Shown: positions 17,679-27,678 of the stretch, piece after piece | How the letters are laid out: each line of letters begins with the position of its first letter | Numbering within the stretch: position 1 is the first letter of the stretch | Assembly: GCF_001874525.1 (NCBI RefSeq) | Contig: NZ_LKAQ01000004.1 | Coordinates: 372,001 to 436,000, forward strand | DNA from: Pseudodesulfovibrio hydrargyri | GTDB lineage: Bacteria; Desulfobacterota; Desulfovibrionia; Desulfovibrionales; Desulfovibrionaceae | Direction of reading: 5' to 3' | Length of the DNA stretch: 64,000 bases | Made by a program: the position numbers and the translations under genes | Notes under the pieces: generated by a model | Seen by the model: only the letters and a program-made list of their open reading frames with translations | Told to the model about the DNA's origin: nothing | The model's database searches: none

Positions 17679-17930
17679 CTACGGCTTGCAAATCTTGCAT
17701 GGTCGGAACCCGGCCTTCAGGGCCGCCTGCCGCGTGGCGAAGTACACCACGCAGTTCTTACAGTTGTAGTAGCGGCAGCCCGGCCGGTGAAAGATGTGCG
17801 AATTGCGGTTGCCGTGATATTCGGCCGCGGCCACGGTCAGCGGTTCGCCCCGGACCGCTGACCGTTCACCGGCCGCCGACCCTGCGGCCAGCAGGAGCAG
17901 AAAGAGCGCACAGACATACAGCTTTTTCAT
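17679..17930 (-). CDS. Secreted Ada-like metal-binding domain protein
   Basis: An 83-residue protein with a signal peptide (MKKLYVCALFLLLLAAGSAA) and a C-terminal half resembling the zinc-binding domain of the Ada DNA-repair protein: NRNSHIFHRPGCRYY, then VYFATRQAALKAGFRPCKICKP. Candidate ligands are Cys52, Cys57 or Cys60, Cys78 and Cys81. In secreted proteins this module also occurs next to nuclease domains, but no catalytic domain is present here. The function is unknown. Confidence 0.75.
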   Translation of the reverse strand: MKKLYVCALFLLLLAAGSAAGERSAVRGEPLTVAAAEYHGNRNSHIFHRPGCRYYNCKNCVVYFATRQAALKAGFRPCKICKP

Positions 17931-18025: not shown

Positions 18026-18628
18026 CTATTTCAGTCTCGGCGGGCCGAGCACGATCATCTCGGCGATGGTGTGGTCCACCTTGGGGAGCGCGCGCAGGTT
18101 CTTGCCCACGAACTGCATCTCGAGCAAGACCAAGTCCTTGTACATGGGAGTGCGGTCCACGGTGGGCACGTCCTCCATGCCCTCGGTCAATTCCTGGCAG
18201 CGGTAGCAGCCCGGGAAGCGGACCTCCTGGCCCGTGTGGCGGGTCAGCAGGTTGGGCACGCCATGCATGCGGCAGATCATCAGCCGGTGCTCGTACAGGC
18301 CGCAGACGCCCTGCTTCTCGTCGATGTTCAGCGGGCACATGACATGCGGGCGCTCGCCGCGCGACAGGGCTGCCTGGGCCTGGGCCACGTAGTCGCGCGC
18401 CCGGTCCTTGATCTCTTCGAGCCGGTCGGCCGGGAGCTTGTTCAAGCCCTCCCACATGTAGGCCCACTCCACATAGGTGTGGTGCTGAAAAAAGGACAGG
18501 CAACAATTGTCGGTGCAGCCCTCGCAGGTCATGCCGATGGGGCCGGCCGCCTCGTCGTAGCGGGCGACCATCTTGTCGTATATGGCGGCCAACTTGCGGA
18601 AGGCGGCCTTGGGGGTCAGTTTGTTCAT
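18026..18628 (-). CDS. YkgJ-family cysteine cluster protein
   Basis: A 200-residue protein with the CxxCxxxCC arrangement Cys35, Cys38, Cys42 and Cys43 (CEGCTDNCC), plus later cysteines in CPLNIDEKQGVCGLYEHRLMIC and CYRC. This is the YkgJ/CxxCxxCC zinc- or iron-chelating family, of unknown biochemical role. The start overlaps the shikimate kinase stop by four bases (ATGA), so translation is coupled. A second, unrelated-position YkgJ protein is encoded at 42337-43149. Confidence 0.82.
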   Translation of the reverse strand: MNKLTPKAAFRKLAAIYDKMVARYDEAAGPIGMTCEGCTDNCCLSFFQHHTYVEWAYMWEGLNKLPADRLEEIKDRARDYVAQAQAALSRGERPHVMCPLNIDEKQGVCGLYEHRLMICRMHGVPNLLTRHTGQEVRFPGCYRCQELTEGMEDVPTVDRTPMYKDLVLLEMQFVGKNLRALPKVDHTIAEMIVLGPPRLK

Positions 18629-19161
18629 GCGATGTCGAGGTGTTGAAGGATGATGTCCACGCACTCGTCGGGCGCGCACTGGTCCGTGCGGACCGTCAGG
18701 TCGGCGGCCTCGCGGTACAACGGCAACCGCTCGCTGTAAAGGTCGCGCATGGTCTTGCCCGGGCCGATGGCCAGCCCCCGGTTCTCGCCGTCGCCCACGC
18801 GCTCGATGAAGGTGGCCTCGTCGATGTCCAGCAGGACCACCGGGCCGAGTCGCTTGAGCCGCTTCACGGCCCTGGGGCCGTAGATGACCGAGCCGCCCGT
18901 GGAGATGACCGTGCGCGTCAGGTTCAAATCCGAGACCAGCCCCTCCTCGATGCGCAGGAAATCGTCCAGCCCGTAGGTGTCCATGATCGCCTGGAGGCTC
19001 AGTCCGTAATAGGACTCCATGTAGCGGTCCGTGTCCAGCTGGCCCCAGCCGAGCCGTTTGGCCAGCAGCCCGCCCAGGGTGGACTTGCCCGCCCCGGCCA
19101 TGCCCACCAGGGTGACGCACGGCTGGCTGACCGCTTCCCGCTTGATCGGCGTGAAGGCCAT
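18625..19161 (-). CDS. aroK: Shikimate kinase
   Basis: Phosphorylates shikimate with ATP in aromatic amino-acid synthesis. The 178-residue protein has a P-loop G20-M-A-G-A-G-K26-S-T, the DTDRYME segment with shikimate-binding Asp, and VISTGGSVIYGPRA, the conserved Gly-Gly-Ser region. Two or more aroK-like genes are common in this group, so this copy may be specialised. It lies two bases after pyrR and overlaps the next gene, in one operon. The longer upstream open frame overlaps pyrR and is not real. Confidence 0.88.
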   Translation of the reverse strand: MAFTPIKREAVSQPCVTLVGMAGAGKSTLGGLLAKRLGWGQLDTDRYMESYYGLSLQAIMDTYGLDDFLRIEEGLVSDLNLTRTVISTGGSVIYGPRAVKRLKRLGPVVLLDIDEATFIERVGDGENRGLAIGPGKTMRDLYSERLPLYREAADLTVRTDQCAPDECVDIILQHLDIA

Positions 19162-19163
19162 GC

Positions 19164-19709
19164 CTACTCGCCCCGGACCAGGCAGACCCGGTCCTCGCCG
19201 TCGCGCTCGTTGACCAGCACGTTGACGTGCTCGTCGCCCAGGGTGTCCAGCTTCTTGCCCACGTAGTCCGCCTGAATGGGCAGCTCGCGGTGGCCCCGGT
19301 CCACCAGGACAAGCAGCTCCACCCGTTTGGGGCGGCCGTAGTCGAGGATGGCCTCCAGCGCGGCGCGCACCGTGCGGCCGGAATAGAGCACGTCGTCCAC
19401 CAGCACGATGGATTTGCCCTCCACCTCGAAGCCGATCTCCGAACAGTTGATGGTCGGGGCCAGCTCCAGGTTGGTGGTCCAGTCGTCGCGGTACAGGTTG
19501 ATGTCGAGCTTGCCCAGCGGGACCTTGCGGCCCAGGCGCTCGTCCAGGAGCAGTTTCAGCCGCTCGGCCAGGTCCGCGCCCCGGCGCTGGATGCCCAGAA
19601 TGGCCAGGGACTCGTCGTCGCCCCGGCGCTCGTAAATCTCGACGGCCAGCCGCTCCAGGGTCCGGCTCATCTCCTTGTCGGACAATATGGTGCCGCAGTC
19701 TTTCATCAT
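19164..19709 (-). CDS. pyrR: PyrR bifunctional pyrimidine regulator / uracil phosphoribosyltransferase
   Basis: A 181-residue phosphoribosyltransferase-fold protein. The PRPP loop VLVDDVLYSGRT is at residues 102-113, followed by RPKRVELLVLVDRGHRELPIQADYVGK, which is specific for PyrR rather than hypoxanthine phosphoribosyltransferase. In other bacteria PyrR binds pyr mRNA; no pyrimidine gene or attenuator is visible here, so only the enzyme role is safe to infer. It is the first gene of the operon with aroK and the YkgJ gene. Confidence 0.9.
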   Translation of the reverse strand: MMKDCGTILSDKEMSRTLERLAVEIYERRGDDESLAILGIQRRGADLAERLKLLLDERLGRKVPLGKLDINLYRDDWTTNLELAPTINCSEIGFEVEGKSIVLVDDVLYSGRTVRAALEAILDYGRPKRVELLVLVDRGHRELPIQADYVGKKLDTLGDEHVNVLVNERDGEDRVCLVRGE

Positions 19710-19868
19710 CTCGGCCTCGCATGGCTTAGCGGTTGAAGGAACATAGGAAATTAGCCCATCGCCAAGGGGTGGTCAACTCCGCCCCCGGCCTGCGCCTTCT
19801 TTCGATTTGACAAAGGGTGTTATTGATCTTACCTCTTCTTCTCCCGACCCAAATTAGGAGGCATTATA

Positions 19869-20213
19869 ATGATCGAAGTCACCGAAGCTGCCCAGAAGCA
19901 GCTGGAAGGCTACTTCCAGGACAAGGAAACGTCCCCGGTCCGCGTGTATCTCGCGGCCGGCGGTTGAGCGGGCCCGCGCCTGACCCTGGCTCTGGATGAG
20001 CCTAACGATAAGGATGACGTGTCCGAGGCCGGTGGATTCACCTTCCTCGTGGAAAAGGACCTGCTGGCCCAGGCCGGCAACATCAAGATCGACATGACCT
20101 ATTACGGATTCGTCGTGGAATCCGAGAACCCCGTGGGCGGAGGCGGCTCCAGCTGCGACTGCTCCTCGGCCGGTTCCTGCGGTTCCGCCGGCTCCGGCGG
20201 CTGCGGCTGCTAG
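19869..20213 (+). CDS. HesB/IscA-like selenoprotein (in-frame TGA read as Sec33)
   Basis: A 114-residue A-type Fe-S carrier-like protein if the TGA at 19965-19967 is read as selenocysteine. The frame starts at ATG 19869 behind AGGAGG and is interrupted only by that TGA. The paralogue at 20647 has TGC, Cys33, at the exactly aligned position (GGC-AGPRL against GG-TGA-AGPRL). This is the first conserved Cys of the IscA motif. A candidate bacterial SECIS stem, GGCTC (19988-19992) / GAGCC (19998-20002) with a TGGAT loop, lies 25 bases past the TGA. The C-terminus is rich in Gly and Cys (CDC, CGC). HesB-like proteins are a described selenoprotein group. Confidence 0.88.
19988..20002 (+). promoter_or_regulatory. 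Candidate bacterial SECIS apical stem-loop
   Basis: GGCTC-TGGAT-GAGCC forms a 5-bp stem with a G-containing 5-base loop. It starts 20 bases after the TGA, within the usual distance for SelB recognition in bacterial selenoprotein mRNAs. The match is structural only. Confidence 0.55.
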
Positions 20214-20292
20214 CCGACGACAGCGGCGATCCGCTTCGCTGGAATTGTAGGCGAATCTTCGAGCCGTACAATATCCTAGGTGAGCCGCAAAA

Positions 20293-20340
20293 GGCCCGGA
20301 CCGACGCGTATCCCAATTCGCGAGGGTCCGGGCCTTTTTT
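20293..20340 (+). terminator. Terminator of the selenoprotein gene
   Basis: The stem GGCCCGGACC (20293-20302) / GGTCCGGGCC (20325-20334), with an inner CGCG/CGCG pairing, is followed by six T. An equivalent terminator follows the Cys paralogue. Confidence 0.88.
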
Positions 20341-20646
20341 GCGCCTCGCGGCTCGCCGCCTCCCACCCGTCTGCCGCCATGGCGTTGCGGTGAAATCCCG
20401 CTCGGGTTCTGCCTCTTTATATATGAATCGGGCAGGCGCCTCCATGCCTGCGTCCGCCCACCTGCCGCCGAAGGAGCGGGACCCGGCAGGGATTGCGGGT
20501 ACCCCCGGGGGGCTCGGATCAGATTTTTTCACCTGTGATTCCATCGCATTGGACTGTTTTGCCGAGAGCGGTGATCGTTTTTCCCTTTACATCGGATAGA
20601 TGATCCTTATTGTTTTGGAGAACGAAACCAATCCAGGAGAGTAATT
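20341..20646 (+). other. Spacer between the two HesB-like genes
   Basis: No gene is seen. The first part (to about 20382) matches sequence downstream of the second gene, including GCGCCTCGCG and CCCGTCT.CCGCCATGG. The stretch near 20560-20646 is AT-richer and probably holds the promoter and AGGAGAG ribosome site of the paralogue. Confidence 0.5.
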
Positions 20647-20967
20647 ATGATCACTGTTACCGAATCGGCCCAGAACGAACTGACCAAATATTTTGCGGAC
20701 AAGGACGTACAGCCCATCCGCGTGCACCTGGCCGACGGCGGTTGCGCCGGGCCCCGCCTGTCCCTGGCCCTGGACGAGCTGCGCGACGGCGACAAATCCT
20801 TTGACCAGGGAGACTTCACCTTTCTGATCAACGAGGAACTGGCCCAGGCCTCGGGTGCCGTGTCCATCGACATGACCCCCTACGGCTTCCAGGTCTCTTC
20901 CGAGAACGAGATGGGCGGCGGAGGCTGCGGGTGCTCCTCCTGCGGCACCGGCTCCTGCGGCTGCTAG
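20647..20967 (+). CDS. HesB/IscA-like protein (Cys paralogue)
   Basis: A 106-residue A-type Fe-S carrier-like protein, a tandem paralogue of the selenoprotein upstream. Cys33 (DGGCAGPRLSLAL) takes the place of selenocysteine. The C-terminal tail GGGGCGCSSCGTGSCGC supplies the other cysteines. Both genes share the post-stop sequence CCGACGACA.GCGGCGATCC and a similar terminator, so the duplicated unit includes 3' flank. Its likely role is Fe-S or metal handling; no isc or suf genes are nearby. Confidence 0.88.
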   Translation: MITVTESAQNELTKYFADKDVQPIRVHLADGGCAGPRLSLALDELRDGDKSFDQGDFTFLINEELAQASGAVSIDMTPYGFQVSSENEMGGGGCGCSSCGTGSCGC

Positions 20968-21005
20968 CCGACGACAAGCGGCGATCCGCTTCGCTGCAGC
21001 AAAAA

Positions 21006-21054
21006 GGCCCGGACCCTCGCGTATCGAGATACGCTTCGGTCCCGGGCCTTTTTT
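21006..21054 (+). terminator. Terminator of the Cys HesB paralogue
   Basis: The stem GGCCCGGACC / GGTCCCGGGCC (one bulged base), with an inner GCGTAT/ATACGC hairpin, is followed by six T. Confidence 0.87.
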
Positions 21055-21202
21055 CTTGCGCCTCGCGCGCTCAACTCTTTTCGCGGCCCAGCCCGTCTCC
21101 CGCCATGGAAATCAGGCAGAGAGCGTCAGGACCGCCCGCGTTCGGGAAATGCAACCAATCGGTCCCTTAGACCACCCAAACGGATAGAACCGTCCTCCCC
21201 CT

Positions 21203-24055: not shown

Positions 24056-25006
24056 ATGTTTTTCAAACGGAAAAATCAAACCGTCTTCGTCAAGACGTCC
24101 ACGGGCAACCGTCAGGCCGTCCGTGCCGGCCTGCCCATCTTCATCATTCTCGCCCTGACCATGAGCCCCCTGCTCACGGCGGGAAGCGCCATTGCGCGAC
24201 AGCTCGATGGCGGGCAATACCTGACCGGATTCGGAACCATGGAGGGCAAATCCCTCTATCAGCGGCAAGCGGCCCTAGGTTCCGGCTCCTTTCCGGACGG
24301 CGCGGGCCGCTTTCCGGCCTTGCGAGCTCAGGCCACGGGAGGCGTTCCCAATATCCCGGACAGCGGCAACGACGCCCTGCTCCTCAAGCTGTTCGCGGGC
24401 GGAGCCGTGCTTCTCGCGCTGGTCGCTTTCGGCGCGTGGCACCTGGCCCTGGCCGTGGCCCGGCGCAGACAGTTCGAGGGCGAACTCTTCGAGGTGGCCA
24501 TGTTCGACGCCCTGACAGGACTGCCCAACCGCGAGCTCTTTTATGACCGGCTGAACGAATCCATGAACCTGTCCGCCCGATACGAGCGCAGACTGGCCCT
24601 GCTGCACATCGAGCTGGACGGCTTCAAGGAGGTCAATGACACACTGGGGCACGAGGCGGGCGACGAACTGCTCAAGCGGGTCGGCGCGCTGCTGACCGGC
24701 TCGGTGCGCCGGTCCGACACCGTTGCCCGGCTGGGCGGCGACGAGTTCATCGTCATGCTCAACGAGATAACCAACGTGGGCGACGCGGTCCTGGTGGGCG
24801 AGAAGCTCGTCTCGGCCCTGCGCGCGCCCATTACCCTCAGGGAAGGCCCGGCGACCATAGGCGCCAGCGTGGGCGTGTCCGTGTATCCGGAGCACGGGGC
24901 GTCCGCCGATCTCCTGATCCAGAAGGCGGATCAGGCCATGTACGTCTCCAAGAACAAGGGCAGGAACACCTGCACCATGGCCGCGCGAACGGCCGACGCC
25001 CCCTAG
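24056..25006 (+). CDS. Membrane diguanylate cyclase (GGDEF)
   Basis: A 316-residue inner-membrane enzyme that makes cyclic di-GMP. A transmembrane helix near residues 27-47 and another near 110-132 ([16 protein letters not shown]) bound a short periplasmic stretch of about 60 residues that must be the sensor. The cytoplasmic GGDEF domain has the exact active-site motif G227-G-D-E-F231 and an intact inhibitory site R218-R-S-D221 five residues earlier, so product feedback is expected. The ATG at 24056 follows AGGGGGGAC. Its stop overlaps the convergent CobD-CobQ stop in a shared CTAG. Confidence 0.9.
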
Positions 25007-27678
25007 CCGCCCATGCGCCTGAACAGCGGGGCCTGGGCGCAGCAGCCCGACAGCCCCAGCGCGCGGTAGACCGCGTCCATGTCCACGGCCTCGCGGACCA
25101 CCGAGGCCAGGTGGTCCAGGGCGTCCTCCAGACCGAAGGTGGACTGGACGGTCTCCAGCGGCGACAACCCCTTGTCCATGCGCAACTGGTCGATGAACCA
25201 GCGGCGGAACGCGTCCGCGTCGAACAGCCCGTGCAGGTAGGTGCCGAGCACCCGCCCGTCCGGGCGCATGTAGCCGAGCGGCTCGCCCGCGCTGTCGCGC
25301 AGGGCCACGCGCAGGTCGTCGGACAACGGCTCGGTGCGGCCGTGATGGATTTCATAGCCATGCACGCTGCGGCCCGAGGCAGAGTGCGTGCCAAACGTGC
25401 GGGTCAGGGTCTTTTCCGGGGCCAGGGTGGTCTGGACCGGTAGGAGGTCGAAGCCCTCCACCCGGGTGGTTTCGGACTCCAGCCCGTAGGGATCGTCCAC
25501 GATGCGGCCGAGCATCTGGAACCCGCCGCAGATGCCGACGATGCGGGTGCGGCCCTCGGCCAGCCCGCGCAGGACCGCGGCCATGCCCGTGCCCTTGAGG
25601 GCGCGCATGTCCGGCACCGTGGACTTGGAGCCCGGGATGATCACCGCGTCCGGCGTGCCCACGTCGCGGGCGTCGGCCGCCACGCGCACGCGCACGTCCG
25701 GCTCGTTGTACAGCGGGTCGATGTCGTTGAAATTCGAGATGCGCGGCAGGTCCAGGACGACCACGTCCACGCACTGGTCCTCGGGCAGCTTGTCCGCCTC
25801 GGGCCGGAAGCCCTCCTTGAACGAGACCGAGTCCTCCTCGGGCAGCCCCAGGCCGTGGATGTACGGCACGGTGCCGAGCACCGGCTTGCCCGTGCGCTCG
25901 AACATCTGGCCGAAGGCCGGGTCAAGCAGCGAGGCGTCGCCCCGGAAGCGGTTGATGACGTACCCCTCCACCAGGTTGCGCTCCTTCGGCGTGAGCAGGC
26001 TCATGGTCCCGACGATGGAGGCGAAGACCCCGCCCCGGTCGATGTCGCCGGTGAGCAGGACCCGGGCCTTGGCGTACTCGGCCATGGCCATGTTGACGAT
26101 GTCGTGGTGCTTGAGGTTGACCTCGGCCGGGCTGCCCGCCCCTTCCAGGACCATGACGTCGTGCTCGTTGGCCAGGGAGTCGTAGGCCGCCTTGACCGCG
26201 TCGAAGGCGCGCGGCTTGAACTCCACGTACTCGCGCACGTTCATGTTGCCCACCGGCCGCCCCATGACGATGACCTGGGAGCCGGTGTCCGACCCGGGCT
26301 TGAGCAGCACCGGGTTCATGCGCACGTCCGGATTCAGGCGGCAGGCCATGGCCTGGGTCACCTGGGCGCGGCCCATCTCGCCGCCCTGGTCCGTGACGTA
26401 GGAGTTGAGCGACATGTTCTGGGCCTTGAACGGGGCCACGTCGAACCCGTCCTGGAGCATGATCCGGCAGAAGGCCGCCGCCAGCACGGACTTGCCCGCG
26501 TTGGAACTGGTCCCCTGGATCATCAGGGCCGGGGTTTTGCGCGTGCGCCGGACCACCGGACCGCGCGCCGTGCCCGCCACCTCCTCCATGGCCCGGATGA
26601 GGCGCTCGTTGTCCTCGCGGCCGCGCACGGCCACCCGAAACCACTTGTCGTCCAGGCCGGTGTAGTTGCCGCACAGCCGGATGCCTATGCGGTGCTCCAT
26701 GAGCAGCCGCTCCTGCAGAAAGATCGCGTCCCGGCCCACGCGGTCCATGCGGCAGAGCAGGTAGTTGGCCGCGCCGGGCAGGACCTTGATGCCCGGGACC
26801 TGCCTGAGGCCCGAGGCCAGGGATTCGCGCAGAAGCCGGGTCTGCTCGCGGGTCTCGGCCAGGTAGGCGTCGTCCTTCAGGCAGCGCTCGCCCACCTTCT
26901 GGGCCAGGGTGTTCACGGACCAGGCGGCCATGTTCTGGCGGATGCGCAGGATCACGTCCGGATCGGCGAAGGCCAGCCCCAAGCGCAGACCTGGGATGGC
27001 GTAGGACTTGGTCAGGGACAGGACGGTGATCACGTTGGACGGCCGGTCGCGGGTCAGCCGGTCCGCGTCTTCGGGCAGAAATTCGGCAAAGGACTCGTCC
27101 ACCACAAAGGTGGACTGGGGGAACATGGCCGCCACCTCGCGCAGGTCGTTGGCCGACACCACGGTACCGGTGGGGTTGTTGGGCGAGCACAGAAAGACCA
27201 GGGAGGGCGTGGCCAGGAGCGTGCCCATGGACGGGAAATCCACCGTGAAATCGTCGGTCAGCGGCGGCTCGACCACGGGCAGACGGTGGACCCGGCAGGA
27301 CCGGGCGTAGTCCACGTAGGTGGGCGAGGGGATGACCGCCCGGCGGAACCCCTTGAGCCCGGCGATGGCGAAGAGCAGCTCGGACGCGCCGTTGCCCGCC
27401 GTGACCTGGGTGGGCCAGACCTTGTAGCGCTCGGACGCGGCCATGATCAACCGGGTGCACTCCGGGTCCGGGTAGGCGTCCACCTCCTGCAACGCCTGGC
27501 CGACCACCTGGCCGAGCCACGGCGGCGGCCCCAGCGGGTTCACGTTGGCCGAAAAGTCGAGGATATCCTCCACCGCGCACCCGGCTGTTTCGGCCATGCG
27601 CCTGCGGTTCCCCCCATGGGCGAACTTCCGTTCGTCCAAGACCTCGGGTATCCCCGCGAAAAGATTCTGCTTATCCAT
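25003..27678 (-). CDS. Fused threonine-phosphate decarboxylase (CobD) and cobyric acid synthase (CobQ)
   Basis: An 891-residue two-enzyme fusion for adenosylcobalamin synthesis. Residues 1-375 form a PLP-dependent aminotransferase-fold enzyme of the CobD/CobC type: NPLGPP, PNNPTG and the PLP lysine K224 in [14 protein letters not shown]. It makes the aminopropanol-phosphate linker. Residues about 382-891 are CobQ/CbiP: an ATP-binding GTSSNAGKS loop (389-397), [10 protein letters not shown], and a class I glutamine amidotransferase domain with Cys717 in [10 protein letters not shown] and a late HGLFD histidine. CobQ amidates four side chains of the corrin ring. The linkage lets two adjacent steps share one polypeptide. 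Both active sites look intact. Confidence 0.93.

Follow-up and report, generated by a model that had tools for sequence, protein, structure and literature searches.

The locus at positions 19869-20213 (+ strand) of the window, by which we mean the whole 64,000-nucleotide stretch of the sulfate-reducing Pseudodesulfovibrio hydrargyri that was analysed, raises the question of how an in-frame TGA within a hesB/iscA-like gene is to be read: as selenocysteine (Sec), as a genuine stop or as an error. We are highly confident that this is a gene for a HesB/IscA-like (A-type) selenoprotein in which the UGA of codon 33 is read as Sec. The observations behind this reading are the frame itself, a hairpin together with its comparative conservation, the decoding machinery of the host and the co-occurrence of the gene with selA, and from these we infer Sec insertion in the present strain.

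The frame, of 114 residues when Sec is counted, is broken by one internal stop only, the TGA at 19965-19967, just as the original prediction had stated. Its further claim of a tandem paralogue with TGC at the same codon and alignable neighbouring residues was likewise borne out: the frame at 20647-20967 (+) is open, has TGC at codon 33 (20743-20745) and shares with the Sec gene the motif GG-[U/C]-AGPRL. By eye, a Shine-Dalgarno-like AGGAGG lies upstream of the ATG of the Sec gene at 19869. The context of codon 33 is U-A-G-P and thus of the UxGP type, with the TGA at the first conserved cysteine followed by xGP. Translated through the TGA, the protein passed the NCBIfam model NF038090 (IscA_HesB_Se) with 118.4 bits against a cut-off of 85, and the Pfam model PF01521 (Fe-S_biosyn) with 32.9 bits against a gathering score of 26.3. 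It did not reach the cut-off of TIGR01911 (HesB_rel_seleno; 34.5 vs 66.35 bits) and stayed far under those of the NCBIfam equivalog models for IscA, SufA and ErpA.

In alignments to solved A-type proteins, codon 33 coincided with the cysteine in GGCSG of PDB entries 1nwb_A (E 2e-4) and 2apn_A (E 1e-3), that is, on the first Fe-S cysteine position of A-type carriers. The Gly/Cys-rich C-terminal tail (20136-20210, +) holds a CxC (C96, C98), and this CDC aligned to the C-terminal CGC of both structures; C98 was invariant in 42 aligned sequences. Together with the retained hairpin and the machinery described below, the GGCSG alignment supports the proposal that Sec replaces the first Fe-S cysteine. 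Judging from these aligned ligand positions, Sec33 may bind iron or an Fe-S cluster, and Sec as the first ligand would be expected to alter cluster or metal binding.

A product without Sec could also arise by functional truncation, through a stop at the TGA or a restart at the GTG of 20019, and an ORF running from this GTG to 20213 is indeed present in the mechanical ORF list. However, the segment N-terminal to the TGA shows conservation at the protein level, with M1, A8, L12, F16, K19 and R25 invariant or nearly so in the 42 aligned sequences. Truncation would moreover leave the conservation of the downstream hairpin without any purpose, and we consider it very improbable.

This hairpin, GGCUC-UGGAU-GAGCC, is located at 19988-20002 (+), 21-35 bases 3' of the TGA, so that the 5 bp stem and loop claimed for the place of a bacterial SECIS element were confirmed. 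Its loop (UGGAU) has 5 nt with G as the second position, the distance from TGA to loop is 25 nt and the folding energy is -7.6 kcal/mol. Section 5 of PMC13188914 gives, as rules for bacterial SECIS elements, a stem of 4-16 bp, a loop of 3-9 nt, G in the first two positions of the loop, a UGA-to-loop distance of 16-37 nt and a minimum free energy of -7.5 or lower. A script check found the hairpin to follow four published SECIS rules, the -7.6 lying barely inside the -7.5 limit. As a single-sequence fold it is unremarkable: 16 of 200 shuffles were at least as good for the 46-nt segment (z = -1.5), and 25 of 200 for the 66-nt segment (z = -1.1). An Rfam scan of 19700-21100 with E values up to 10 gave six sub-threshold matches, none of them over the hairpin. 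It is therefore the comparative evidence, and not the single-sequence fold, that lifts the hairpin beyond chance.

For this comparison we used 90 loci from genomes of the family, made up of 30 from the initial family search, 51 chosen for their TGA and 9 listed as Cys-only (one of which, L107, also holds a TGA copy), so the mixture of TGA and Cys copies is a chosen one and not a census. A profile search of these loci and the window yielded 154 copies, namely 79 with TGA, 55 with TGC or TGT and 20 outside the motif pattern. In distinct sequences, all five base pairs were intact in 78/78 TGA copies (window included) vs 2/54 Cys copies. The 20 motif-mismatch rows comprised 2 TGA copies, both with the hairpin, 9 Cys copies, none with it, and 9 copies with neither residue; summed with these, the hairpin was complete in 80/80 TGA (window included) vs 2/63 Cys copies. 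The set of named loci gave 73/73 vs 2/62, although it overlaps the 90-locus set and is not independent of it. The comparison of homologues that the original prediction called for had a positive outcome, as TGA recurs at codon 33 across the Desulfovibrionaceae and the hairpin is kept in TGA but not in Cys copies. The sole Cys copies keeping the full stem, in L021 and L097, possibly carry a remnant like that of the Desulfitobacterium hafniense HesB-like protein mentioned in the legend to Figure 4 of PMC1794560.

The pairing itself was examined over 75 distinct rows, in which 100% of the cells were paired; sliding the partner lowered this value to 15-45%. Changes on both sides were seen in two of the five pairs (two cases of G-C to A-U, one of U-A to C-G), a level reached by 0 of 500 shuffles. 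For further pair types, the weak one of five covariation measures, 33 of 500 shuffles were as high. RNAalifold predicted the same hairpin from the alignment. Because the region is coding, some of the stem pairing reflects protein conservation, and the loss in Cys copies is partly due to the different amino acids encoded there; taken one by one, the five pairs were kept in 40, 26, 26, 6 and 48 of the 54 Cys copies. Most informative is the pair that depends on the third base of an Ala codon; this codon is GCT in 77/78 TGA vs 6/54 Cys copies. GCT makes up 1.3% of 157 Ala codons in five genes of the window, so that rare codons build the stem. The lone TGA copy with GCC (L098) carries the matching change on the opposite side of the stem.

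The host genome (4.08 Mb, 5 contigs, completeness 100) contains the complete set of genes that the original prediction had pointed to as necessary, and an absence of the machinery is not what was found: selA (608.6 bits), selB (386.8 bits), selD (329.2 bits, with its own in-frame TGA) and tRNA-Sec, i.e. selC, with 79.6 bits against a gathering score of 47 and an ARAGORN anticodon of TCA. With regard to selD (L018:1501-2427, - strand; G000:C4:1221975-1222901), the TGA lies near the start in the context GUAAK, which fits the UxxK motif tabulated for SelD in PMC13188914; SelD of this host thus looks like a selenoprotein as well.

The same association was followed across the family in 119 sampled genomes, that of the window included, of which 111 had a family match and 108 a match over the cut-off. 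In this survey selA was counted at E values up to 0.001, 41 genomes whose first listing was incomplete or in which selA was missing were searched again, and the TGA status beyond the fetched loci is a stop count from the search rather than a codon reading. Among the 99 genomes at least 90% complete, 84 had both a TGA copy and selA, none had a TGA copy without selA, 7 had selA only and 8 neither. The corresponding numbers for the 20 genomes under 90% completeness were 5, 4, 4 and 7, and all four cases of TGA without detected selA consequently belong to these incomplete genomes. Among the 91 near-complete genomes with selA, 7 are without a TGA copy over the cut-off, so that the Sec form is frequent but not obligatory; G068 is under the cut-off by half a bit, and in G095 selA is partial and under its own cut-off. 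Two genomes without selA gave weak sub-cut-off matches with TGA (G107, 24.5 bits; G027, 44.6 bits).

These counts bear directly on the possibility that the TGA is a nonsense mutation or a sequencing error, i.e. a real stop or a misread TGC, so that the first copy would be a pseudogene beside a working Cys copy. A single base would suffice for this, and the intact paralogue starts 778 bp past the start of the Sec gene. Yet a match with one TGA occurs in 6/6 other sampled genomes of the same genus (G004, G046, G072, G091, G104, G116), a TGA copy over the cut-off is present in 93/119 family genomes (window's included), and the TGA copies, besides keeping the SECIS hairpin, are more conserved than the Cys copies in 1134 of 1225 locus pairs. 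This conservation is a strong argument against a mutation or an error, either of which we regard as extremely improbable.

Returning to the Sec reading, the question becomes what the Cys copy does beside the Sec gene. The paralogue passes both NF038090 (110.3 bits) and PF01521 (36 bits), has no SECIS hairpin and is separated from the Sec gene by 433 bp. The nearest named loci are from Pseudodesulfovibrio and relatives in the Desulfovibrionaceae, with 81% identity at best. In 80 named loci (of 236 confirmed), the fetched stretch held TGA and Cys copies in 53, TGA only in 20 and Cys only in 7, so that a Cys copy stands beside the Sec gene in 53 of the 73 TGA loci. Other arrangements were also encountered. 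In two Desulfovibrio piger loci (L163, L176) three copies stand in tandem, two Cys copies followed by a Sec copy. Nine loci (L038, L041, L044, L052, L057, L062, L063, L065, L075) have, within the same fetched stretch as the Sec gene, an extra HesB-like copy whose residue at the position of codon 33 is neither Sec nor Cys, and hence with the first ligand missing (for example FLSFMSESGP and SPRGSRGP).

A terminator-type hairpin with a T-run follows the Sec gene (20289-20340, +; -39 kcal/mol, z -5.8) and a second one the Cys gene (21002-21053, +; -33.2 kcal/mol, z -5.6); they were found as repeats, being 77% identical copies, and then folded. Given the hairpin between the genes and their 433 bp spacing, separate transcripts are likely, and the Cys twin is probably transcribed apart from the Sec gene. 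A promoter scan gave a weak sigma-70-like site 5' of the Cys gene (20586-20613, 9/12; 0.4 expected by chance) and no site 5' of the Sec gene. A terminator scan returned one site at 20559-20574, with 1.8 expected by chance, and did not pick up the long hairpins starting at 20289 and 21002, whose loops are probably too large for its rule.

Concerning the neighbourhood, the divergent upstream gene (19164-19709) passes the PyrR model. The largest cluster of flanking ORFs, PyrR by eye, is present in 36/81 records, a rough count in which the window's own gene is not part of the cluster. By eye, no Fe-S assembly or selenium genes were recognised among the 14 largest flanking clusters. Some further genes of the window deserve mention. 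The protein of 18026-18646 (-) has a CxxCxxCC 'putative zinc- or iron-chelating' domain (22.1 vs a Pfam cut-off of 23), and an ORF resembling it by eye lies beside HesB genes in 8/81 records. The product of 17679-17930 (-) is small and carries an Ada-type metal-binding domain (PF02805), to which a signal peptide is added on visual inspection. The 891-residue ORF at 25003-27678 (-) combines a class I/II aminotransferase domain (PF00155) with CobQ-type domains (PF01656/PF13500, PF07685) and looks like a cobalamin-pathway fusion.

To describe the history of the pair, a tree was built from 143 of the 154 copies, weak matches and duplicates being left out, over 92 columns; 33 of its 140 inner branches remained open. 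The tree needs 23 changes of the Sec/Cys label, at least 11 of them forced by well-supported branches, and many Cys copies group close to Sec copies from the same genus. These label changes mean that the Cys copies do not look like a single old lineage, in a tree that is weakly resolved. Within the genus of the window, all 8 Cys copies cluster together (100/100), and the pair is thus old there. In 50 loci with one copy of each kind, the mean identity was 0.584 between Sec copies and 0.486 between Cys copies; Sec-Cys identity was 0.618 within and 0.510 between loci. The own neighbour was the closest Sec copy for only 15 of the 50 Cys copies, which, like the single group in the genus of the window, counts against frequent recent conversion.

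As a whole, this divergence pattern suggests that the constrained Sec protein is the principal form, with the Cys form as a relaxed, selenium-independent backup. Alternatively, the two could form a heteromer, or the Cys form could have a distinct role. Taking the backup reading further, we tentatively propose, as a possible though rather doubtful picture, that in the Desulfovibrionaceae the Sec-HesB is commonly half of a tandem Sec/Cys pair, that its Cys half was remade repeatedly, by duplication and Sec-to-Cys change or by conversion from the Sec neighbour, and that the pair may act as a carrier system responsive to selenium, with a fast-evolving Cys understudy behind the strongly constrained Sec protein.

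At the level of the single locus, the proposed mechanism is that the hairpin directs SelB and its Sec-tRNA(Sec) to read the UGA of codon 33 as Sec; in the full-length product, Sec33 and the C-terminal CxC would fill three ligand positions of an A-type carrier. The Cys twin, probably on its own transcript, would provide a selenium-independent and less constrained version of the same activity.

The family to which this gene belongs is long known. HesB-like proteins were placed under 'known selenoproteins' in PMC1088965 (2005); PMC1794560 (2006) tabulated 11 of them and recorded the family in, among others, Desulfovibrio vulgaris, D. desulfuricans, Syntrophobacter fumaroxidans and Geobacter sulfurreducens; and PMC13188914 (2026) has a HesB-like entry with the motif UxGP. 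TGA is also present in Nitratidesulfovibrio liaohensis (L141), a relative. Because the family is already catalogued, Desulfovibrio included, and NF038090 exists, the present gene is a sound re-discovery and not a new kind, by which a well-supported species is added. The literature search, with most subscription journals outside its scope, found no paper on a tandem Sec/Cys HesB pair, nor a description of Cys copies outside a single lineage or of their faster divergence. Such pairs are a natural comparison, within one genome, of Sec vs Cys at one metal-ligand position, and their frequency makes the effect of Sec on an A-type carrier directly testable.

Compared to known systems, the protein resembles the HesB-like selenoproteins of NF038090, whose model it passes, in having Sec at the first conserved cysteine; TIGR01911 is the model that reviews use for the HesB-like family, whereas the present protein falls into the NF038090 branch with its Gly/Cys-rich tail. 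With the A-type carriers IscA, SufA and ErpA it has in common the Pfam domain PF01521 and the aligned GGC and C-terminal CxC, but it differs from them by Sec as the first ligand and by the long Gly/Cys tail. According to PMC11097638 (2024), a HesB-like selenoprotein of Methanococcus maripaludis was identified earlier by mutagenesis and 75Se labelling; its role is described there as not clear, and nitrogen fixation persists in a disruption mutant (an observation that those authors left unpublished). M. maripaludis also offers the closest likeness to the pair, as it has Sec proteins and Cys versions in one genome, although the Cys isogenes described in PMC11097638 take the place of methanogenesis enzymes, with HrsM repressing them under adequate selenium supply.
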